The translations under genes and the position numbers were made by a program. Below the pieces are notes generated by a model. It worked only from the letters and a program-made list of their open reading frames with translations. It was not told the origin of the DNA and searched no databases. DNA of 64,000 bases, from assembly GCA_905479995.1 (NCBI GenBank), contig CAJQON010000010.1:1-64000 (forward strand), read 5' to 3'. This DNA is from an uncultured Flavobacteriales bacterium. Its GTDB lineage: Bacteria; Bacteroidota; Bacteroidia; Flavobacteriales_E; Vicingaceae. Positions 47,845-57,185 of the stretch are shown in pieces (position 1 is the first letter of the stretch; each line of letters begins with the position of its first letter).

Positions 47845-48483
47845 TTACACCAAACCTTTTTTAACTGCTAAAACAATGAGTTCTGCCGTGGTAGATATTT
47901 TTAATTTTTTTAAAATATTGTGCCGATGAGATTCAACTGTTCTTCTACTTAACAAAAGATATTCAGCCATTTGGCTGTTGGTTTTACCTCTACTTATATA
48001 ATACATAACTTGTAGTTCTCTTTTTGAAAGACCATATTGGCCGGTTACATGATTCTTGTTGTCTAATAAAGAGTTGATGAGTTTAACTGATATATCATTA
48101 CTAAAGTATTTTGTTCCCTTATGGGTTGCAACAATAGCTTTAATTAAACCTGCCTTGTCTGTATCTTTTAAGACATAACCCATTGCTCCCGCCTTTATCA
48201 TTTTAAGAATGTATGATTCTTCGTTGTGCATTGTTAATGCTAAAATTTTTATTTTTGGGAAAAGCTTAATAAGAATTTCTGTTACTTTAATGCCATTTAA
48301 ACTAGGCATAGTAATGTCTAGCAAAGTTATGTCAATCTTGTCATAGTTTTCTTTCAAGTATTCGATTGCTCCTTCGCCATTACTAGTTTCAGCAACAACT
48401 TCGATGTTTTGTTCAGGTTGAAGTATTAATTTTATTCCATCTCGAACCATTTTATGGTCATCTACCAAAAGTATTTTTATCAT
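47845..48483 (-). CDS. NarL/LuxR-type response regulator
   Basis: 212 residues. The receiver domain has Asp8/Asp9, phospho-acceptor Asp56 (LLDITMP), Thr in ALTMHN and Lys in GYVLKD. The C-terminal LuxR-type HTH (about 147-210) reads LSKRELQVMYYISRGKTNSQMAEYLLLSRRTVESHRHNILKKL. It lies 12 bases after a REC-PAS-histidine kinase with the HisKA_3 domain that normally phosphorylates NarL-type regulators, so it is the probable output of the operon. Likely targets include the duplicated element at 55460 and 56548. Confidence 0.94.
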   Translation of the reverse strand: MIKILLVDDHKMVRDGIKLILQPEQNIEVVAETSNGEGAIEYLKENYDKIDITLLDITMPSLNGIKVTEILIKLFPKIKILALTMHNEESYILKMIKAGAMGYVLKDTDKAGLIKAIVATHKGTKYFSNDISVKLINSLLDNKNHVTGQYGLSKRELQVMYYISRGKTNSQMAEYLLLSRRTVESHRHNILKKLKISTTAELIVLAVKKGLV

Positions 48484-48495
48484 ATTATTTGTTAT

Positions 48496-50271
48496 TTAGG
48501 TATTCGTAAATTGTTTGGCCCAAAGAATAGCATCATATTTATTATCGAAGCTATTTATAGGCGAATTAGGGTGTAATTTTTTAATGCTGTCTTTTCCGTT
48601 ATCTGACTCATAAACATATGCCATTGCGGTTGAAATGCATTCAAAGTGATTGTGGATTTTTTGTACCTCTTCATTGTTATAATGAGTTGGAATAAATGTT
48701 ATAATCGGCTTTTTTATGCCTCCCATAATTGATGTTTCAATAACGGAGTCCTCATGAATTTGAGTGGTAGAATAAACGTCTTCATTTGTTTTTTTGGGGT
48801 CAATAAATATTATTCCATCTTCACTTAGCTGTATTTGAAGTTCTGATTTGCCAATTTTTTTTGTAAAAATATGGTCTATATTCTCTAGTAGTTGAAATTG
48901 AAGAGGTATCGATAGCCTAAAGCAAGTTCCATTTCCTTCGCTGCTTATAATTTCAAGGGTGCCGTTAAGCGACTCAACTCTAGAAATAATATTATTTAAT
49001 CCGAGGCCTTTTTGTACTTCTTCATAATCAAATCCTACTCCATTGTCCTTTAGTGTCATTTCAATCTTTTGCATTGAATTAACGTTGATTTGTATTTTGG
49101 AACACTTGGAATACTTAATAGAGTTGTTAACGAATTCTTGTACTATTCTGTAGAGTGCTAGCTTTAAATCATTGCCTAATACAGGAAGGTTTTCGTCTAT
49201 AGATACTTCTACTTCAATATTGCCTCTTCTAATGCTTTCGGCAAGTCTGTTTATGGCAAACTCTAGGTTGTTGTCCATAATAGCAGGTGGAAGAATCTCA
49301 TAGCATAGTTTTCTCAACTGAGCAATTATGATACTTACGTCATTAGAAAAAGCATTTAAAAGATCTTTTCTTTTGTCAAATGATTTTTCATTTTTTAAAG
49401 GTTCTATTTGAAGTTTTAGTACAACTAATTTTTGCCCTAAATTGTCGTGTAATTCTCTTGAAATTCTTACGCGTTCTTCCTCCTGCGTTTTAATTGTATT
49501 TTTTAATATGAGTTGTTTGGTTTTAGTGCGTTCAGTTATATCTTTAATTAATACTTGATAACTCGTTATTTGGTTATATTCATTTACAATAGGGTTAGCA
49601 GAAATTAAGACTGTTTTTAGTTTACCGTCTTTTGTTTTTACTTTGCATTCATGGTTAGTTATTTCAGCGTTTTTACGCATTAGTGCTATAAGGCGGTTTT
49701 TATCTGAGGGATTATATAGAAGTGCACTAAAATGTAAAGCTGCCAATTCTAGGGTGTCGTAATTGGTAAAATCTATAGCGGCTTGGTTGTAATAATATAA
49801 TTTACCTTGTGAGCTCATTATAATTATGGGGTCGTTTGTAGAGTCAAAAATCTTCTTGTATTGCTGGTTTAATTTATCTACTTCTTCTTGTAGCGAATAA
49901 AATTTGTATGCATTTTCTATGGTTAGTTCTAATTCAGCTTCGTTCCATGGTTTGGTAATGTAGCGGTAAACATGTCCTCTATTAATCGATTCAATTACAG
50001 TTTCAATATTTGAATATCCAGTAAGCAAAATTCTTATTGGTTTGGGGTGTATAGTTAATATAGATTCAAAAAAATCAATGCCTGTTTTTCCGGGCATTTT
50101 TTGGTCAGAAATGATTACTTGAATGTGGTGTTTTTCTAATATTTTCATTCCTTCATCGACTGATATCGCTGTAAAAACTTCAAAAGTTCTTCTAAAACAG
50201 GCATTAAAAGCGTTTAAGTTCAACACTTCATCATCAATGTACATTACGTTTATTTTTTGTTCAATTTTCAT
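48496..50271 (-). CDS. Soluble hybrid: receiver, PAS, HisKA_3 histidine kinase and extra C-terminal domain
   Basis: 591 residues with no membrane segment. An N-terminal receiver (Asp13, Asp14, phospho-acceptor Asp56 in ISDQKMP) is followed by a PAS domain (about 137-245). The NarL-type kinase core has the H-box RISRELHDNLGQKLVVLKL and ATP-binding boxes (VQEFVNNSIKYS, DNGVGFD, GLGLNNI). The last 120 residues (from about 470) are not part of the kinase. They have GIIFIDPK, then KKPIITFIP, then DAILWAKQF, faintly like STAS-like/DUF7793 domains. An N-terminal receiver implies input from another kinase, plausibly the 7TMR-DISM kinase encoded 1 base upstream. Confidence 0.9.
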   Translation of the reverse strand: MKIEQKINVMYIDDEVLNLNAFNACFRRTFEVFTAISVDEGMKILEKHHIQVIISDQKMPGKTGIDFFESILTIHPKPIRILLTGYSNIETVIESINRGHVYRYITKPWNEAELELTIENAYKFYSLQEEVDKLNQQYKKIFDSTNDPIIIMSSQGKLYYYNQAAIDFTNYDTLELAALHFSALLYNPSDKNRLIALMRKNAEITNHECKVKTKDGKLKTVLISANPIVNEYNQITSYQVLIKDITERTKTKQLILKNTIKTQEEERVRISRELHDNLGQKLVVLKLQIEPLKNEKSFDKRKDLLNAFSNDVSIIIAQLRKLCYEILPPAIMDNNLEFAINRLAESIRRGNIEVEVSIDENLPVLGNDLKLALYRIVQEFVNNSIKYSKCSKIQINVNSMQKIEMTLKDNGVGFDYEEVQKGLGLNNIISRVESLNGTLEIISSEGNGTCFRLSIPLQFQLLENIDHIFTKKIGKSELQIQLSEDGIIFIDPKKTNEDVYSTTQIHEDSVIETSIMGGIKKPIITFIPTHYNNEEVQKIHNHFECISTAMAYVYESDNGKDSIKKLHPNSPINSFDNKYDAILWAKQFTNT

Positions 50272-50272
50272 A

Positions 50273-52393
50273 TCATTTAATTGGAATTTTAATAATTATG
50301 CTTGAGCCTTTTCCTGGGGTTGTATAAACCGATGTAGATCCTTTGTGCTGTTTTACAACTATACCATATACAATAGAAAGTCCTAGGCCGGTGCCTTGAC
50401 CAACGTCTCTAGTGGTAAAAAAGGGCTCAAACATTTTGTCTTTAGTTACTTTATCCATTCCTACTCCATTGTCTTTAATTTTAAAAACAACGTCATTGTT
50501 TTGAACAAATGTGGTTATATTAATTAGTGGTTTTTTGTCGGTATTATTACTTACTGCGTTAATAGCATTATCAATAAGATTCATAAAAACCTGGTTTAAT
50601 TTGCTCGGGTAGCAGTTAATTAAGGGTAAATCGCAAAGTTCTGTAGTTAGTGTAATGTTATCTAACTTAGAGTTTATTAGCATTAAGGTTGACTCTACCC
50701 CTAAATTGATGTTTGTTTTTTGATAGTCGGCTTCATCTAATCTCGAAAAATTTTTGAGTCCAGAAACTATTTTTATAGTTCGATCTGCACCTTCTTTTAT
50801 CCCTGCTATAATATCGCCTATTTCAATTTTTAAATAATTAAATTGAAGTTTCTTTTTTAGCGCATTTATTTCTTCTAGATTTTCGCTAAGATTACTGGCT
50901 TCATCTAGTTCTTCATATTTATTAAGAACAAGGTACAGCTCGTTTAAATCTTGTTCTAAGGGATTTATGTTGGAAGAAACAAAATTAATAGGGTTGTTAA
51001 TTTCATGAGCAATACCAGCTGTTAGCTGTCCTAAAGTGGACATTTTGGCTGACTCAATCAACTGAACTTGGGTGTCTTTTTGGTGTTTTAGCGCCTCTTG
51101 AAGCGCCTTTGTTTTTTCTTGTACTTTTTGCTCGAGCATCTCGTTTTGCTCGTTAATAATCTTTTCATTTTCTTGCAATGCATGAAGCGTTTTTTCTTGA
51201 GCCTCTTCTTTTTCTTTTTTATATACATTAATTCGTGCTGCTAATGCAAAAGAGAGCAATACAGTTTCTATAGCCGAACCAATTTGCATGGTGTAACGGG
51301 TATAGTTATTGTATGGCAAGATTTCTAAATCTTTTAAGATAAAAATGATAACACCTATTAAAAAGATAACCCAAGCTGCTAAAAAATATTTGGCGGGGTT
51401 ATAATTTCTTGAAATTCTAAAGACAACATAAAGCATAAAGAGTGAGACAATCATTGCGTTAAACTCCATTAAGGAGAAGCTTAATTTATATTTTTGAAAT
51501 AAAGCTGCAATAATTGAAACGATATAAGGAACAAAAAGGAAGATTGATATTTTGAAAAAGGTTTGATTGTGATTTTTAACCTTTAAAAAAACATTCATAA
51601 AGACCAATGAGGCTATTCCTACTAGAGAGGGGAAAACAAATAAACTATATTTTGCAATTATTGGAAAGTTTGGCCATAAATATTGGTAGGGGTAGCCTTG
51701 TAGACTGGTTTGTGTTAGGAGAATAAGAATAATATAAAGAACATAATAAAGATAACTCTTATCTTTTACTGAGAAATAAATAAATAAATTATAAAGAATC
51801 ATAACGAACATAATACCAAAATAGATTCCTGATAGAAGGTCTCGATTCCTTATTTGTTTATTGATTTGTTCGGTTGTGCCTATGAAAATTGGTAGTTGAA
51901 CCCCTTCAGTACTTCGAATTTTCAGATAGAAATCTTTTGATTGTCCATTGGGTATATCTAAATCAAAAAGGAAGTATGGATCGGAGTGTTTTCTGTTTGC
52001 AAAAGGAATTTCTTCTCCTGAAATGGTTTTAGAGAATTGACTGTCTGAGGTAGGGTGAAAAAATTCTACATAATCTATTATTGGGAGTGACAGATTTAGT
52101 ATGAGAAAATTGGATTTGCTTTTATTAGTAACTGGAATTTTCACCCAAAATGTAGATTTTGTAATACCTAAATTGGGTACTTCACTTTTGCTAGGGATAA
52201 AATCTTTTTTTAGTATTTGATTTATAGAAAGGTTATTTGTTGAGTCTTCATAGATAAGAAGATTGGGGATAGAAACCAACTGTTCTATTTCTGAGATATG
52301 AGCATTCGATTGAGAACAGCAATTCGATTGCTGAATTAATAAAGATAAAGTTATGATGACATTGGTTAATATTGAAGAGGCTTTAATTGTCAT
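50273..52393 (-). CDS. 7TMR-DISM sensor histidine kinase
   Basis: 706 residues from the ATG at 52393, chosen because it overlaps the GNAT stop as ATGA and begins a signal peptide; an ATG 12 codons upstream is less likely. The periplasmic DISMED2-type jelly roll covers about 25-170 (LGITKSTFWVKIPVTN, FYLKIRSTEG). Seven membrane helices (about 180-385) and a coiled coil follow. The HisKA domain has the H-box TAGIAHEINNPINFVSS and the ATPase boxes NLIDNAINAVSNN, DNGVGM and GTGLGLSIV. DISMED2 domains are thought to bind carbohydrates or other small ligands. There is no attached receiver, so phosphate probably passes to the REC-PAS kinase or the stand-alone receiver nearby. Confidence 0.92.
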   Translation of the reverse strand: MTIKASSILTNVIITLSLLIQQSNCCSQSNAHISEIEQLVSIPNLLIYEDSTNNLSINQILKKDFIPSKSEVPNLGITKSTFWVKIPVTNKSKSNFLILNLSLPIIDYVEFFHPTSDSQFSKTISGEEIPFANRKHSDPYFLFDLDIPNGQSKDFYLKIRSTEGVQLPIFIGTTEQINKQIRNRDLLSGIYFGIMFVMILYNLFIYFSVKDKSYLYYVLYIILILLTQTSLQGYPYQYLWPNFPIIAKYSLFVFPSLVGIASLVFMNVFLKVKNHNQTFFKISIFLFVPYIVSIIAALFQKYKLSFSLMEFNAMIVSLFMLYVVFRISRNYNPAKYFLAAWVIFLIGVIIFILKDLEILPYNNYTRYTMQIGSAIETVLLSFALAARINVYKKEKEEAQEKTLHALQENEKIINEQNEMLEQKVQEKTKALQEALKHQKDTQVQLIESAKMSTLGQLTAGIAHEINNPINFVSSNINPLEQDLNELYLVLNKYEELDEASNLSENLEEINALKKKLQFNYLKIEIGDIIAGIKEGADRTIKIVSGLKNFSRLDEADYQKTNINLGVESTLMLINSKLDNITLTTELCDLPLINCYPSKLNQVFMNLIDNAINAVSNNTDKKPLINITTFVQNNDVVFKIKDNGVGMDKVTKDKMFEPFFTTRDVGQGTGLGLSIVYGIVVKQHKGSTSVYTTPGKGSSIIIKIPIK

Positions 52394-53145
52394 ATCATTT
52401 TGTTTAGAGATTTTCTGGATTTTGTACAAAAATTTACAACTGATACATTTTTGTACAATAAGTTATATTTTATTTCACAGGATAAGCTTTTGTTTTTTTC
52501 AATTCTAGATTGATAAGGCTTGGCTCTTAGTGAAAGCATAATTGATTTATCGTCTTTACTTGCTGTTTTTAAGGTTATGGCATTTAGTATCCCTATAACA
52601 TGAGCTGTATATTTTTCATTAGGATAAGGGAAATTGCCCTGCGCACCAAGAGACTTATCTATTTCAAAACCAATTTCACTAAAAAGTTTTAAAGTATATC
52701 CAGCACAAATTCCCAGCATTGTTTCAAAATTTAGTTGGTTTGCTGATGAGATAGATGCCCACATTAAATACCGACTAATTCCTAAACCTTTTACTTCTTT
52801 AGAAATCCATAGTCCACATGACTCTCCTATACCTCCATTTAGTGCATACTTTTTTACTTTGTCATGAATATTAGCATCCATTTTTCCGATTGCTAATTCT
52901 ACTGGTAAAGGATGTATCCCATCGGCAATTTGAATTCTAACTCCCCCAATAAGAGATAATGTATCTTTATCTTGGGCTACTACACAATAAATATTAGGAT
53001 TATTAGTCCAAGTTTTATTATTTGTAGTAATGTTGGCGATGCCGTAATCAGTTAAAACTTTTACATGACCTTCAATGTATTGCACACAAAGTTCTGGCTC
53101 GTCAATTGCTCTAAAAGCAAATATGTTAAATTTGTTTGAAATCAT
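52390..53145 (-). CDS. GNAT-fold acyltransferase-like protein (copy 1)
   Basis: 251 residues. The N-terminal segment FAFRAIDEPELCVQYIEGH is shared with the paralogue at 55609-56313. The core looks like a GNAT fold: LPVELAIGKM, then GGIGESCGLWI leading to the acyl-CoA loop KEVKGLGISRYLM, then LKLFSEIGFEI. A C-terminal extension of about 60 residues is unlike ordinary acetyltransferases. The shape recalls N-acyl amino acid or autoinducer-synthase-like members of the superfamily, but the substrate cannot be read from the sequence. It overlaps both neighbours by 4 bases (ATGA), so it is tightly coupled to the E1/nitroreductase gene and the sensor kinase gene. Confidence 0.72.
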   Translation of the reverse strand: MISNKFNIFAFRAIDEPELCVQYIEGHVKVLTDYGIANITTNNKTWTNNPNIYCVVAQDKDTLSLIGGVRIQIADGIHPLPVELAIGKMDANIHDKVKKYALNGGIGESCGLWISKEVKGLGISRYLMWASISSANQLNFETMLGICAGYTLKLFSEIGFEIDKSLGAQGNFPYPNEKYTAHVIGILNAITLKTASKDDKSIMLSLRAKPYQSRIEKNKSLSCEIKYNLLYKNVSVVNFCTKSRKSLNKMI

Positions 53146-55454
53146 GAGTTTATTATAAGTACATCTGAAATGAGTCTTCTCAAAGATTTTTTTGGTGGTT
53201 TCTTTGCTTTAGAAATTCTAAAAATGAACATAACTTCATCTTTTTTGTCCAATTCGCAAACTTCATATAAATTAGTTTGTAAGGCTTTTAAATTGCTTTT
53301 AATGGAGGTTAAATCACTTTTGTCAACTTCTTCAAGCCTTGCAAATAAGAAAGAGGCTATTGACATTGGCTGAAAGGATAAATTTTGTTGTGTTGCTTTA
53401 AGCCAAACTCTTTGTAAATATCTGCCTGCTTCAAAATAAGTTGTTGCAGCGTTTTTTGGAAGGTAAATTACTCCAACCGCAGAAGCGCATTCCAGCCCTT
53501 TTTTTGTTAAATTACCAAAGCTTTTACCTAGTTTCCAATTGTTAATATACTTTGTTACGTTCCAATTTTTAGCCACTAAAAAACCGGCTTTTTCTGTTGG
53601 GGTAAGGTCTATTAAATTTAACTCAACGCCATCTTTGGTAGTTTTGGCTTCATCTTTAGTCCACCTAATTTCATTAATAAAATTTTTATGCCCTGCTTTG
53701 TTGGTGTAATAGAGCTGGTCAACTTCGCACAATATTTTACTTATAGCAGTTATTTTATCAGGGTTTGTAAATAATTTTAATTTACAATTTTTTGAGACTA
53801 TTGATTGCAGGGCATTTTCTTCAAGTGGAGTTATTGGTATATATTTGCCTATGTTTCTATTGGTTATACGGTTTTTAATGCTAGCATGTAATTCGAAATA
53901 AGGGTAGGCATTTTTTCTTTCGCTTTTGTGGAACGTAAATGAAGCCACTAAATTTTTATCATGGCCAATAGGAAATTGTGATATATTTACCTTGATTTTT
54001 AAATGATTAGCTTCTAAAATGAGGTTCTCAGAAGCGGCTCCTAAGCTTAGGAGTGATGCTTTATTTTTATAATTAAGAATAGAGGCTGTTCTATTTTTAT
54101 CTAGAAAAAGGAACAAGGAGCTGTCTTTGTAAATCCATTTCCATGGCTGAATATTACCTCCAGAAGGTGCGAGAATTGCTGCGGACACTAATTTTTTAAC
54201 AATTACATTGCTTAAAAGAACTGTGTTTTTTGGATCAGAAGTCATAGATTGTGCCTCTTGTAGTTCTTTTGAATAATCTGTTAAAGTTGTATTTGGAATA
54301 CAGTTAATAGTAGGTTTTAAATTAGATGGATGCGAAATAGGATCAGTAACCTCATTGTTAATTTCATTTTCTAAATCAACAAAATACCTTCCCGATTTTG
54401 TAAATTGGTTTAGCAATATCCTTCTGCAAACATCTGTACATATAGCTCCTCCAAGTACAACTCCTGAAGCCAATTGTGGCCAAGTGGTAATTGATTCTTC
54501 AATTTCCAACATTGATGCTTTTAATTTTTCTGAAGAAGTTTCAATTCCAAGCATGGGCAATAGGTAGGGCACCTTTTCTTCATTGGTTTTGGCTTCCTGA
54601 ACTAAATTTAAATCCAAGTGGTCTATTAAGCCATGCAGTATTGGAAGGTTAGGGTCTAAGTCAAATCGCTCCACATCTGTCGTTCCTCTGTCGCTAGAAT
54701 TCATTACTACTGGAATACCTAAATCTTTGGCTTTTTCTCTTGTAAAAATTTTAGCACTTAGGCCATCACATACTTCAATGCAAATGTCTAGCCTTCCATT
54801 GGATATAAAAAAATCTACAGCATTTTGTTCTGTTATGCCATCGTGTAGGCAGTTTACTTTTATAAAAGGGTCAATTTCGGCTATTTCTCGAGCTACTACT
54901 ACTGTTTTTTTTGTATTAAGGTTATATACGCTCGTTTGTATTCTGTTTAGGTTAGACAATTCTATCAGGTCAAAATCGGCTAAAATTAAGTGACCGCAAA
55001 TGCGCTCCATGGCAATGGTAGTTGCAATAGATTTTCCGACCGAGAGGCCAACAATTCCAATTGTTTTTGTTGCCAAAATCTCTTTTTCCTTGGGCGTAAT
55101 TTTATATTGATTTCTGTTGGTGCGTACTTCTACAAATTCAGCTTCACCTAATAAATGGACAATTTTGTTGAGCCACGGATAATAAACCCAAACACCAATC
55201 TCTTCTTTTGGATCACCAGCGATGTACTCTTCCAATTTTTCCGCTAATTCTTGTTTGGTAAATTTTAGCTTTGGATGACGAAGCGCTATTAATTCACATA
55301 ACTGGCTATCGATCTCATCGCAAATATCGATGTTCAAATTTCCATATAATAGTTTGTCAAACTTTTCTTCATCACCTTGTAGTTTTAAGTTAAATACAAA
55401 TGGGCGATAACAATTGTTGTTATTGTTTAGTGGGACTTTATATCGTTTTCTCAT
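53142..55454 (-). CDS. E1-like (ThiF/MoeB) adenylyltransferase fused to a nitroreductase domain (Rv1355c-like)
   Basis: 770 residues. Residues 128-370 form a Rossmann E1-like domain: GIVGLSVGK (134-141) in place of GxGGxG, then DFD (160-162) and SNLNR (167-171, arginine finger). Lys182/Lys183 and an Asp at 230 (EVCDG) follow. The CxxC zinc pairs and the catalytic Cys of ThiF/MoeB are not evident. Residues about 410-750 are nitroreductase-like (AAILAPSGGNIQPWKW at 425-440, FEAGRYLQRVWL near 680). The fusion matches the Rv1355c-type family annotated MoeY in Mycobacterium, whose function is unknown. It is the first gene of a five-gene operon. ATP-dependent adenylation followed by flavin redox chemistry on a small substrate is the expected reaction class. 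Confidence 0.85.
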   Translation of the reverse strand: MRKRYKVPLNNNNNCYRPFVFNLKLQGDEEKFDKLLYGNLNIDICDEIDSQLCELIALRHPKLKFTKQELAEKLEEYIAGDPKEEIGVWVYYPWLNKIVHLLGEAEFVEVRTNRNQYKITPKEKEILATKTIGIVGLSVGKSIATTIAMERICGHLILADFDLIELSNLNRIQTSVYNLNTKKTVVVAREIAEIDPFIKVNCLHDGITEQNAVDFFISNGRLDICIEVCDGLSAKIFTREKAKDLGIPVVMNSSDRGTTDVERFDLDPNLPILHGLIDHLDLNLVQEAKTNEEKVPYLLPMLGIETSSEKLKASMLEIEESITTWPQLASGVVLGGAICTDVCRRILLNQFTKSGRYFVDLENEINNEVTDPISHPSNLKPTINCIPNTTLTDYSKELQEAQSMTSDPKNTVLLSNVIVKKLVSAAILAPSGGNIQPWKWIYKDSSLFLFLDKNRTASILNYKNKASLLSLGAASENLILEANHLKIKVNISQFPIGHDKNLVASFTFHKSERKNAYPYFELHASIKNRITNRNIGKYIPITPLEENALQSIVSKNCKLKLFTNPDKITAISKILCEVDQLYYTNKAGHKNFINEIRWTKDEAKTTKDGVELNLIDLTPTEKAGFLVAKNWNVTKYINNWKLGKSFGNLTKKGLECASAVGVIYLPKNAATTYFEAGRYLQRVWLKATQQNLSFQPMSIASFLFARLEEVDKSDLTSIKSNLKALQTNLYEVCELDKKDEVMFIFRISKAKKPPKKSLRRLISDVLIINS

Positions 55455-55459
55455 AGTTT

Positions 55460-55573
55460 AATAATTTTATTAAATGAATACGATAGGAAGGATGGTGTAA
55501 TATTAGAGAAAAAATCAAAGCAAAAGTATCCGTATAAATCCTTAATTTTTACTAAGTAATTATACTAGGTTTT
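55460..55573 (+). repeat. Duplicated intergenic element, copy 1
   Basis: About 110 bases that align with 56548-56657 in the same orientation, with small gaps. The best part is 25 identical bases (55492-55516 against 56581-56605), preceded by the shared ACGATAGGAAG. Read on the minus strand it forms the leader and promoter of the E1/nitroreductase operon, starting 6 bases from the ATG at 55454. It contains the 8-base palindrome TAATATTA. Confidence 0.8.
55521..55528 (-). promoter_or_regulatory. Candidate -7 element (TACTTTTG) of the E1/nitroreductase operon
   Basis: On the minus strand TACTTTTG matches TAnnTTTG. It lies 66 bases upstream of the ATG at 55454, inside the duplicated element. The -33 region has no exact TTG at the right distance, which would suit an activated promoter. 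Confidence 0.45.
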
Positions 55574-55608
55574 TTCGGAAACTAATTAAAACTTGATTTT
55601 TTTAAAGT

Positions 55609-56313
55609 TTATATATCATTTTTATATTTTATGTTATAATCAATAGAAACCTCTTTGTTTTTATCGTTTTCTATTCTTGTTTGGGTGTGTTTTCTTTGTA
55701 AAGATTTTATTATTTTTTTGTCATAAATTGCAGTACTATCTAAAGTCGTGACATTTATTAGTCCAATAGTATGTGCAACTAAATCTTTATATGGGTATAA
55801 ATGGTGGCCATTTTTCCCCAATGTTTCTTCAATAACAAAACCAACGTTATGAAAAATGTTCAGGCTTACATCTGCCGAAATGCCTATTAGCGTTTTAACA
55901 TTAAATTGATTTGAAGAGGCTATTGCAGCTCTTGTCATGTACCAACCTATGCCTAAACCTTTTAATCTATTGTCAACCCAAAGGCCAGATACCTCTCCAA
56001 TACCTCCGTTTGAGTAGTAGTGTTGCACCAAAACATTAATTTTTGGTTCCATATAACTAATGGCTAACTCTATAGGCAGTGGAGTTTTTCCATTAGCAAG
56101 TTGTATTTTAATACCGGCAAGAAGCTTATTTTTTTTATTTATTAAGCCAAGGCAATATGAGTTAGGGTTGTTAACCCAAGTATTGTTATCAGCAATAATT
56201 TTAGTAAGGTTATATTCGTTTAAGGTTTTATTATGGCCTTTAATAAATTCGCTGCAGAGTTCAGGTTCGTCTACCGCTCTAAAAGCAATTACTTTATATA
56301 ATGATTTTTTCAT
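55609..56313 (-). CDS. GNAT-fold acyltransferase-like protein (copy 2)
   Basis: 234 residues from the ATG at 56313 (MKKSLYKVIAFRAVDEPELC); an ATG 18 codons upstream adds an unrelated polar lead. It is a clear paralogue of the protein at 52390-53145. Shared parts are FRAxDEPELC, the NNPNxYC segment, LPIELAISYM, and GGIGEVSGLWVDNRLKGLGIGWYM with the RxxGxG acyl-CoA loop. FHNVGFVIEETLG and a late AHTIGLIN are also shared. The nucleotide sequences have diverged well. It is a single gene flanked by both copies of the duplicated intergenic element. Function is unknown; an acyl transfer step related to that of copy 1 is expected. Confidence 0.72.
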   Translation of the reverse strand: MKKSLYKVIAFRAVDEPELCSEFIKGHNKTLNEYNLTKIIADNNTWVNNPNSYCLGLINKKNKLLAGIKIQLANGKTPLPIELAISYMEPKINVLVQHYYSNGGIGEVSGLWVDNRLKGLGIGWYMTRAAIASSNQFNVKTLIGISADVSLNIFHNVGFVIEETLGKNGHHLYPYKDLVAHTIGLINVTTLDSTAIYDKKIIKSLQRKHTQTRIENDKNKEVSIDYNIKYKNDI

Positions 56314-56660
56314 GTTGTATTTAATTTGTTTATTATCATCAATACAGGTGTGCGAAAAATCAAACACCTTTTTCTAGTTTTTGGATAGGTTTCAGATAGT
56401 TATTATCAATCTCATCGTGTAATTGAAGAGAGAAAATAAAAAATTTATTGCGCTTAATATAGGGTGCTTTTAAGGCTAAGCTATATACAATTAATAGGGA
56501 GTGAGGATATTTTTTGAGCTATTTTTTTTCGTATTTAAATAAATATTAATAACTTTATTAATGAACACGATAGGAAGTTCATGGTGTAATATTAGAGAAA
56601 AAATCGGAATAAAAAAATAGGTGTAAATACCATTTTTATGCGCGTTATACTGAGTTTTAC
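56314..56660. other. Divergent intergenic region between GNAT copy 2 and the receiver gene
   Basis: 347 bases without a credible gene. The right third (56548-56657) is the second copy of the duplicated element. The left two thirds are AT-rich, and I see no clear promoter match or terminator there. The region must hold the promoters of both the minus-strand GNAT gene and the plus-strand receiver gene. Confidence 0.6.
56548..56657 (+). repeat. Duplicated intergenic element, copy 2
   Basis: This is the partner of the element at 55460-55573, same orientation. It ends 3 bases before the receiver gene start at 56661 and lies 235 bases upstream of GNAT copy 2 on the minus strand. The stretch 56581-56605 is identical to copy 1. 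The -7 match seen in copy 1 is not conserved here (TATTTTTT instead of TACTTTTG). Confidence 0.8.
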
Positions 56661-57185
56661 ATGAGCTTTATGTCGTCCCCCTTTTTAAATAAACCTTTAG
56701 AAAATATGACAAATATCCCCACCTCCCAAAGTAAAATAAGAATTCTTTATATAGACGATGAGGCAGAAAACCTTAGATCTTTTAAAGCAAACTTTAGAAG
56801 AGATTTTACAATTTTTTTAGCAGACTCAGCAAAAGAAGGATTGCAGATTTTAGAAAAAAATAAAGTAGAAGTAATCTTAACAGATCAAAAAATGCCTGAA
56901 ATGACAGGCGTTGAGTTTTTAAAGATAGCGCTTAAAAAATATCCAGAAACAATACGGATTTTAGTAACTGGATATTCTGATGTTTCTGTTGTTAAAGAAG
57001 CATTAAATACAGGAGAAATTTACAAGTATATAGAAAAACCTTGGACTCCTGATTTTATGAAAATGAATATAGAAAAGGCGTATGAAGTTTATGCATTAAG
57101 AAAAGAGAATAAAAAACTTACTGCCGATTTAATTCGAGTAAATAGGCAGTTAGAGTTTATGCTTCGACAGAAACTAATTTCTTAA
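56661..57185 (+). CDS. Stand-alone receiver-domain response regulator
   Basis: 174 residues (or 159 if the ATG at 56706 is used; the first 15 residues look like a non-conserved lead). A receiver domain follows: RILYIDDEAENL with the acidic pair, phospho-acceptor Asp in ILTDQKMPEMTG, Thr in LVTGYSD and Lys in YIEKPW. A helical tail of about 45 residues follows (MNIEKAYEVYALRKENKKL) with no output domain. It is most like the N-terminal receiver of the REC-PAS kinase at 48496-50271 (both have FRR, DQKMP, TGYS, TKPW or EKPW), so it may be a phosphate shuttle or sink in the same pathway. Confidence 0.88.
   Translation: MSFMSSPFLNKPLENMTNIPTSQSKIRILYIDDEAENLRSFKANFRRDFTIFLADSAKEGLQILEKNKVEVILTDQKMPEMTGVEFLKIALKKYPETIRILVTGYSDVSVVKEALNTGEIYKYIEKPWTPDFMKMNIEKAYEVYALRKENKKLTADLIRVNRQLEFMLRQKLIS

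Follow-up and report, generated by a model that had tools for sequence, protein, structure and literature searches.

The protein Rv1355c of Mycobacterium tuberculosis is now known as TrzS and makes N-acyl oxazolones together with an acyltransferase (PMC12856293). Its ThiF-like half uses ATP to cyclise an N-acyl amino acid into an oxazolone, its flavin half desaturates this with O2, and TrzA, the acyltransferase adjoining TrzS, produces N-acyl tryptophan (PMC12856293). The oxazolones of TyzACB derive from tyrosine, and those of OxzAB from tyrosine and phenylalanine (PMC12856293). The characterised members of the Rv1355c family, each with an adjacent acyltransferase, make N-acyl oxazolones (PMC12856293, PMC10404671), whose ring is labile to acid (PMC12856293). 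What bacterial oxazolone lipids do is a major unresolved question according to the group that described TrzAS (PMC12856293). Another cluster with a related layout, the quorum-sensing system Phc of Ralstonia, comprises the methyltransferase PhcB, the kinase PhcS, the receiver (REC)-kinase PhcR and the receiver PhcQ (PMC8578825). Here we report on a locus in a 64,000-base stretch of DNA from an uncultured Flavobacteriales bacterium (contig CAJQON010000010.1; "the window" is this whole stretch) in which a ThiF-oxidase fusion gene and a gene for a GNAT-fold protein, A1, adjoin the gene of a 7TMR-DISM histidine kinase. With rather better than even confidence, we read the locus as a self-contained, modular cassette for synthesis and sensing of a signal, autoinducer-like, whose ligand would be an oxazolone or another N-acyl amino acid derivative. 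It probably represents a chemical signalling system that had not been described before.

The fusion protein matches the curated Rv1355c family NF005901 of NCBIfam with 737 bits over residues 11-767 (cut-off 476), the oxidase half beginning at about residue 386. Its ATP site, consisting of G133-G140 (G133xxGLSVG140), D160, N168 and R171 (N168xNR171), K183 and C229-D230, shows no or almost no variation among the 29-30 homologues aligned, and D230, which we equated with TrzS D217 by motif, is kept in 30/30. Judged by this match, the protein is an oxazolone synthase of the TrzS/OxzB kind, and the substrate class can thus be deduced, which a first-pass annotation made from the sequence without database searches had held to be impossible. 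That annotation had also suggested an acylated, adenylated or reduced small molecule as the product; of these examples "reduced" points in the wrong direction, because the nitroreductase-like half of this family is an O2-dependent desaturase. The enzyme half is of an already known pathway kind, and neither the amino acid nor the acyl chain can be read from the sequence.

The A1 gene overlaps the fusion gene by 4 bases, the arrangement of an adjoining GNAT-fold acyltransferase as found in oxazolone loci, and acyltransferase activity is predicted for its product. The best Foldseek matches of the A1 model (pLDDT 92) were the N-acyl homoserine lactone synthases EsaI, BjaI and RpaI and the N-acyl amino acid synthase FeeM, with TM-scores of 0.6-0.77 on the target and about 0.55 on the query at 9-15% identity. 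Pfam gave no match to an autoinducer-synthase family, solely a sub-threshold one to Acetyltransf_1; a profile sequence search of PDB gave nothing significant and a search of A1 against plasmids no match. Together, the fusion protein and the GNAT protein very probably make an oxazolone or a related N-acyl amino acid derivative.

To see how far enzymes and kinase are inherited together, we surveyed 46 genomes of the window's family and 395 genomes drawn evenly from its class, fetched 60 further neighbourhoods from the class, and used the 84 loci with a long kinase for counts of composition. In the family, the GNAT gene is present in 17/46 genomes and a kinase of the cassette clade in 17/17 of these; among the 29 genomes without the GNAT gene, 26 also lack the kinase and 3 have only kinase fragments at contig edges (Fisher p 6.5e-10). 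Cassette kinases scored 255-830 bits against the window's kinase, except for one contig-edge fragment (G405, 141 bits, 55% identity), and the non-cassette DISM kinases of the family genomes reached at most 180 bits. Across the class the GNAT gene occurs in 76/395 genomes, about a fifth, and a DISM kinase adjoins it in every resolvable locus except L161 (L167 is cut by a contig end), with a median gap of 1 base between the two genes in 70 loci. The order is nearly constant: a divergent lone receiver, a finishing enzyme, the GNAT gene, the DISM kinase and a REC-kinase; in loci with a methyltransferase the GNAT gene precedes the finishing enzyme. The first-pass annotation had named a lack of co-conservation as grounds for giving up its proposal, and the survey found enzymes and kinase to be strictly co-conserved. 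Chance adjacency was ruled out, as dozens of genomes carry this set, with co-linearity far above chance.

A copy outside the class was rejected: the sole match, on G109:C7, is near-identical in its match coordinates to one on G409:C48 (L071). Both contigs are 4,675 bases long and sit in genomes of different classes, and we take them for one shared contig that was probably misbinned. The exceptional L161 has a distant GNAT gene (78 bits) with ThiF and no kinase (L161:8304-10159(-)) and may be an oxazolone cluster of ancestral-like form within the class.

The enzyme that would finish the product varies. The 84 loci include 45 with a ThiF-oxidase fusion, 24 with ThiF alone and 8 with a class I methyltransferase instead of ThiF (e.g. 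L126, L137 and L180). Single loci have a flavin adenine dinucleotide (FAD)-linked oxidase (L125), an ICMT-family methyltransferase (L174) or an O-methyltransferase (L143, which is cut by a contig end so that ThiF may lie upstream), and L164 has nothing between GNAT and kinase. L125 retains a 156-amino-acid (aa) ThiF remnant whose middle is deleted in frame (L125:12816-13286(-)), adjoining the FAD-linked oxidase, which seems to have taken ThiF's place. A search of 13 genomes with ThiF alone for an oxidase half encoded elsewhere gave no homologue at E<=1e-5. ThiF, and plausibly the methyltransferases by extension, would mask the carboxylate of an N-acyl amino acid.

We used this variation to ask which part of the kinase follows the enzymes, splitting each kinase into a sensor half (DISMED2 plus the seven-transmembrane region, 7TM) and a kinase half, and defining the group of methyltransferase loci by gene content ahead of any tree. 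On the sensor tree the eight methyltransferase loci form one clade (1 change, against a mean of 7.8 and a minimum of 6 in shuffles; SH-like approximate likelihood ratio test, SH-aLRT, 99.9), and trees of DISMED2 alone and of 7TM alone give the same single clade, outside which lie the sensors of L143 and L174. On the kinase-half tree the same loci are scattered (5 changes, 6/8 with a full kinase half), and a single clade is rejected by the approximately unbiased (AU) test (p 1.8e-5); they are likewise scattered on the GNAT tree (5 changes) and the lone-receiver tree (7). L180 groups as sister to L162 by GNAT and by kinase half, and L185 as sister to L172 by GNAT, and the two members of each pair differ in finishing enzyme and in sensor; L143 and L135, of one genus, have kinase halves 86% identical and sensors 44% identical.

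A pair test that made no use of class labels took 84 locus pairs whose kinase halves are 60-85% identical. Sensor identity correlated with GNAT identity (Spearman 0.60, 0/2000 permutations as high) and with ThiF identity (0.58, in an 81-pair subset), and not with that of the kinase half (0.18), the lone receiver (0.17) or the REC domain of the second kinase (0.09). The kinase half correlated with the lone receiver (0.58) and with the second-kinase REC (0.72), and the lone receiver with GNAT at 0.40. The limit set on kinase identity does not explain this pattern, because the other relay parts still follow the kinase half. By these comparisons there are two co-inherited modules, the enzymes with the sensor half, and the kinase half with the relay. 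Co-variation of this kind is to be expected of a kinase that senses what the enzymes make, and we consider it likely that the kinase does so. The proposal of the first-pass annotation that the coupled enzymes make what the kinase senses is thus upheld by co-conservation and by co-variation of the sensor half rather than the kinase half, the support being comparative sequence only.

In the scheme we propose, the GNAT enzyme would move an acyl group from acyl-coenzyme A or acyl carrier protein onto an amino acid, probably an aromatic one as with TrzA, TyzA and OxzA. Going by TrzS chemistry and by the family and ATP-site residues of the protein, the ThiF half would activate the carboxylate with ATP and close it to the oxazolone ring, which the flavin half would desaturate. 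The neutral, lipid-like product would be read by the DISMED2-7TM half of the adjoining kinase, as the co-variation suggests, and the kinase would feed a relay of REC-PAS-HisKA_3 kinase, lone receiver and NarL regulator, whose domains and phospho-sites are in place and whose wiring we infer. The regulator probably acts back on the operon through a promoter palindrome that is clear in relatives and weak here. In other lineages ThiF alone, a methyltransferase or an FAD oxidase would finish the product, and since the methyltransferase loci have a distinct sensor type in common, signal and receptor would change together. Autoinducer-type cell-cell signalling is the most likely role, and self-monitoring of a secreted lipid the nearest alternative; taken by itself, we give a role between cells an even chance. 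Evenly balanced, too, is the wider proposal of a signalling family spread over this class of Bacteroidota, in which N-acyl amino acids made by the GNAT are completed by interchangeable finishing enzymes and sensed by 7TMR-DISM kinases, and sensor halves are exchanged with the enzymes, so that distinct types of signal and receptor would share a common relay.

Several observations weigh against this scheme. Over all 62 loci, at any kinase identity, the partial correlation of GNAT with sensor is only 0.23, against 0.19 for GNAT with kinase, and the sensor does not follow the presence of the oxidase in the fusion (11 vs 12 changes). Because the enzyme genes lie next to the sensor half, some of the co-variation could be recombination hitch-hiking. 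Known DISMED2 ligands are carbohydrates, not lipids (PMC8544897). The sequence similarity of the GNAT protein to a TrzS-linked acyltransferase, a neighbour of TrzS in Rhodococcus, is weak; in the oxidase half, where TrzS has R540 and Q651, the Q of the QPMS motif is conserved and no counterpart could be assigned to R540. There is no transporter in the conserved cassette. Finally, the window has no exact or 2-mismatch copy of the promoter palindrome described below, and its own genome has no exact copy, the copy here being degenerate.

The alternatives differ mainly in what the kinase would respond to. A biosynthetic operon under environmental control would make an oxazolone for protection, membrane or antibiotic use while the kinase senses stress, sugars or redox state. 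Induction of oxazolones by sub-inhibitory antibiotics in gamma-proteobacteria (PMC12856293), the carbohydrate ligands of DISMED2 (PMC8544897) and an operator-like promoter site that suits plain regulation all fit such an operon. We nevertheless hold it to be unlikely: a kinase reading an outside cue should keep its sensor half when GNAT or the finishing enzyme changes, not exchange it on an unchanged kinase half. That argument has no force against self-monitoring, in which an antimicrobial or surfactant lipid is sensed to set production, immunity or envelope repair with no role between cells, as the co-variation test cannot separate feedback from quorum sensing. N-acyl tyrosine derivatives from one planctomycete are antimicrobial (PMC12856293) and come from clusters of the same enzyme type (PMC12479983). 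What speaks against self-monitoring is that the conserved cassette has no immunity or transport gene and that its output passes through several relay steps, among them a stand-alone receiver and a receiver-kinase, and we regard it as rather unlikely.

The co-variation itself could also be due to linkage only, with DNA blocks that end near the junction of 7TM and kinase being exchanged without functional pairing; enzymes and sensor half are contiguous, and similarity switches near residue 390-400, the end of 7TM. A partial control for block recombination is the divergent lone receiver, which flanks the enzymes opposite the sensor half and correlates less with GNAT and hardly with the sensor. 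Sister loci point the same way: between L180 and L162 the finishing enzyme and the sensor have changed and GNAT and kinase half have not, and L185 and L172, sisters in GNAT, also differ in finishing enzyme and sensor, so that we think linkage alone quite improbable. The older annotation of Rv1355c-like proteins (MoeY) would imply E1-type protein conjugation or molybdopterin/sulfur transfer, to which the ThiF domain lends itself. Against this stand the curated Rv1355c match and the published oxazolone chemistry, and the role, which we consider very improbable, was rejected when no ubiquitin-like protein, E2, JAB or sulfur carrier was found in the window's cassette or as a conserved neighbour.

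The features of the locus are collected in Table 1, and all named genes were checked as open reading frames. The five-gene minus-strand array claimed by the first-pass annotation is as described, with all reading frames in place and junctions, from the NarL gene to the fusion gene, of a 12-base gap, a 1-base gap, a 4-base overlap and a 4-base overlap. The start of the DISM kinase was taken as the ATG at 52393, the TTG at 52429 being merely the first possible start. The same annotation had a second GNAT gene and a lone receiver follow the array; both are present, with the second GNAT gene, A2, upstream of the fusion gene and 154 bases from it without tight joining, and the receiver divergent on the plus strand and so outside the operon transcript.

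Table 1. Features of the signalling locus, in coordinates of the 64,000-base window
Feature	Position	Strand	Remarks
NarL/LuxR-type response regulator	47845-48483	-	PF00072, PF00196; likely output; mainly within the window's family
REC-PAS-HisKA_3-HATPase kinase, second relay protein	48496-50271	-	Counterpart (REC-HisKA_3 or REC-HisKA) in 72/84 loci with a long kinase
7TMR-DISM histidine kinase: DISMED2 + 7TM sensor half, then HisKA-HATPase half; proposed product receptor	50273-52393	-	PF07695, PF07696, PF02518
GNAT-fold N-acyltransferase A1, 251 aa, predicted N-acyl amino acid synthase	52390-53145	-	Foldseek matches; subclade agrees with sensor subclade of the kinase
ThiF-like cyclase + flavin-dependent oxidase fusion (TrzS/OxzB kind, Rv1355c family), 770 aa	53142-55454	-	NF005901, PF00899, PF00881
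Leader copy ahead of the fusion gene	55492-55516	-	25/25 bases identical to 56581-56605; alignment of about 95 columns
Operator-like inverted repeat CCTAGTATAATTACTTAG 5' of the fusion gene	55552-55569	-	Degenerate copy, 10/14 of CTACGTA-N4-TACGTAG
Second GNAT paralogue A2	55609-56313	-	ATG start; 45% identical to A1; extra in the window's genome
Leader copy ahead of A2	56581-56605	-	25/25 bases identical to 55492-55516
Lone receiver, conserved cassette part	56661-57185	+	In 74/84 loci with a long kinase

A2 shares 58-61% identity with the GNATs of the sister loci L050, L054-L056 and L071, and among the surveyed loci a two-GNAT arrangement recurs in L192 only. In the trees the window's sensor groups with the sensors of loci whose GNATs group with A1, and because of this A1 is likely the synthase matched to the window's kinase. 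The leader repeated ahead of A2 and of the fusion gene suggests that A2 entered by duplication or insertion.

The DISM kinase matches PF07696 with 111.8 bits, PF07695 with 179.8 and HATPase with 79.4; HisKA, at 24.5 bits, falls just under its cut-off of 26.9, and the phospho-acceptor H-box is kept in 81/81 kinases. In an AlphaFold model of the sensor half (pLDDT 85), DISMED2 resembles the periplasmic domain of RetS (3jyb; target TM-score, TMt, 0.82). Foldseek also matched the sensor-half model (51215-52393, minus strand) over its whole length with human Wntless (E 2.6e-5, TM 0.34). Wntless is a 7TM carrier of acylated Wnt, and the match is only a hint, from a predicted structure, that the 7TM region could hold an acyl chain.

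Further along the relay, the phospho-acceptor Asp D75 of the lone receiver is kept in 74/74. In the family, the stretch that separates the lone receiver from the first enzyme gene contains an inverted repeat, CTACGTA-N4-TACGTAG, with a mean best score of 11.4/14 against 8.5 in shuffles (maximum 8.9), and in three relatives the exact palindrome core occurs once in the whole genome, at the cassette promoter. The palindrome has the shape of a NarL/LuxR-type operator and is a candidate site; it fits autoregulation within the family, least well for the window itself. The Bacteroidetes-type -33/-7 promoter pattern was not found in the intergenic regions of the locus. Beside the cassette in G419 lies a unit encoding a 1250-aa kinase-like protein and a NarL-type regulator (L049:13916-18322(+)), which starts with an exact TACGTA-N4-TACGTA site (G419:C163:35895). 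Other exact palindromes in G411, G415 and G419 (L198, L199, L200 and L204) lie near genes that look PAS-kinase-like, LytTR-like or NarL-like in translation by eye, hinting at a regulator network that uses one site. In one family (f66; L140, L145, L151, L159, L169, L187 and L190) the cassette is followed by a gene for a protein of about 900-909 aa.

If the reading of a signalling cassette is true, bacterial oxazolones would have a signalling role and autoinducers a new receptor class; a large bacterial class would have a native small-molecule autoinducer system, and a lipid-like signal would have a 7TMR-DISM receptor. Through a receptor that is conserved and co-varies, the role of oxazolones can be approached directly, with kinase output as a reporter of the compound, and the sensor-enzyme swaps predict matched signal-receptor pairs on a common relay.

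The oxazolone loci OxzAB of Pseudoalteromonas rubra, TyzACB, and TrzAS of M. tuberculosis and relatives have in common with the cassette a ThiF-like cyclase, a flavin oxidase and an N-acyltransferase in adjoining genes, and by curated family match the oxidase-ThiF fusion is common to OxzB, TrzS and the window's protein. The first-pass annotation knew of no described system with this set; the enzymes are in fact recognisable as the Rv1355c/TrzS family, and no such cassette was found in the open-access papers searched. The papers on TrzAS and on stieleriacine make no mention of kinases of this sort. The published oxazolone loci are described without a histidine kinase, whereas the window's cassette has a conserved kinase relay, and many of its relatives, unlike the oxazolone loci, lack the oxidase or have ThiF replaced. 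Among plasmids, a Streptomyces ThiF-only gene overlaps a GNAT gene by 4 bases (L075:5953-7751(+)) and another Streptomyces plasmid carries a longer ThiF protein adjoining a ketoacyl synthase III gene (L076:5131-8045(+)), both possible oxazolone-type clusters; mycobacterial plasmids (L072, L073) have Rv1355c-family copies beside a divergent cytochrome P450, a TetR regulator and a dienelactone hydrolase gene.

RetS, LadS, SagS and NicD of Pseudomonas share the DISMED2-7TM architecture or a DISMED2-like periplasmic domain with the cassette kinase. We know of no biosynthetic genes linked to these characterised sensors. They answer other cues, carbohydrates in the case of NicD (PMC8544897). In the open-access papers searched, we found no 7TMR-DISM system tied to quorum sensing or to acyltransferases. 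The predicted fold of the GNAT protein is like that of LuxI, EsaI, BjaI and FeeM, which transfer an acyl group to an amine of the amino acid type, as is predicted for A1. Compared with the LuxI type, cyclisation in the cassette would need a separate enzyme, ThiF, and the receptor would be a kinase, not LuxR. The clusters for N-acyl dehydrotyrosines (stieleriacine, thalassotalic and kyonggic acids; PMC12479983) are alike in having an N-acyl amino acid synthase, ThiF and a nitroreductase, and differ from the cassette in that no kinases are reported for them (PMC12479983). As a circuit the cassette would work like Phc: both combine in one cluster a synthase, a membrane kinase, a receiver-kinase and a receiver without a DNA-binding part, and some cassette loci use a methyltransferase as Phc does. 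Phc has no GNAT or ThiF and its signal is a hydroxy fatty acid methyl ester, whereas the proposed receptor of the cassette is, by Pfam, a 7TMR-DISM kinase.

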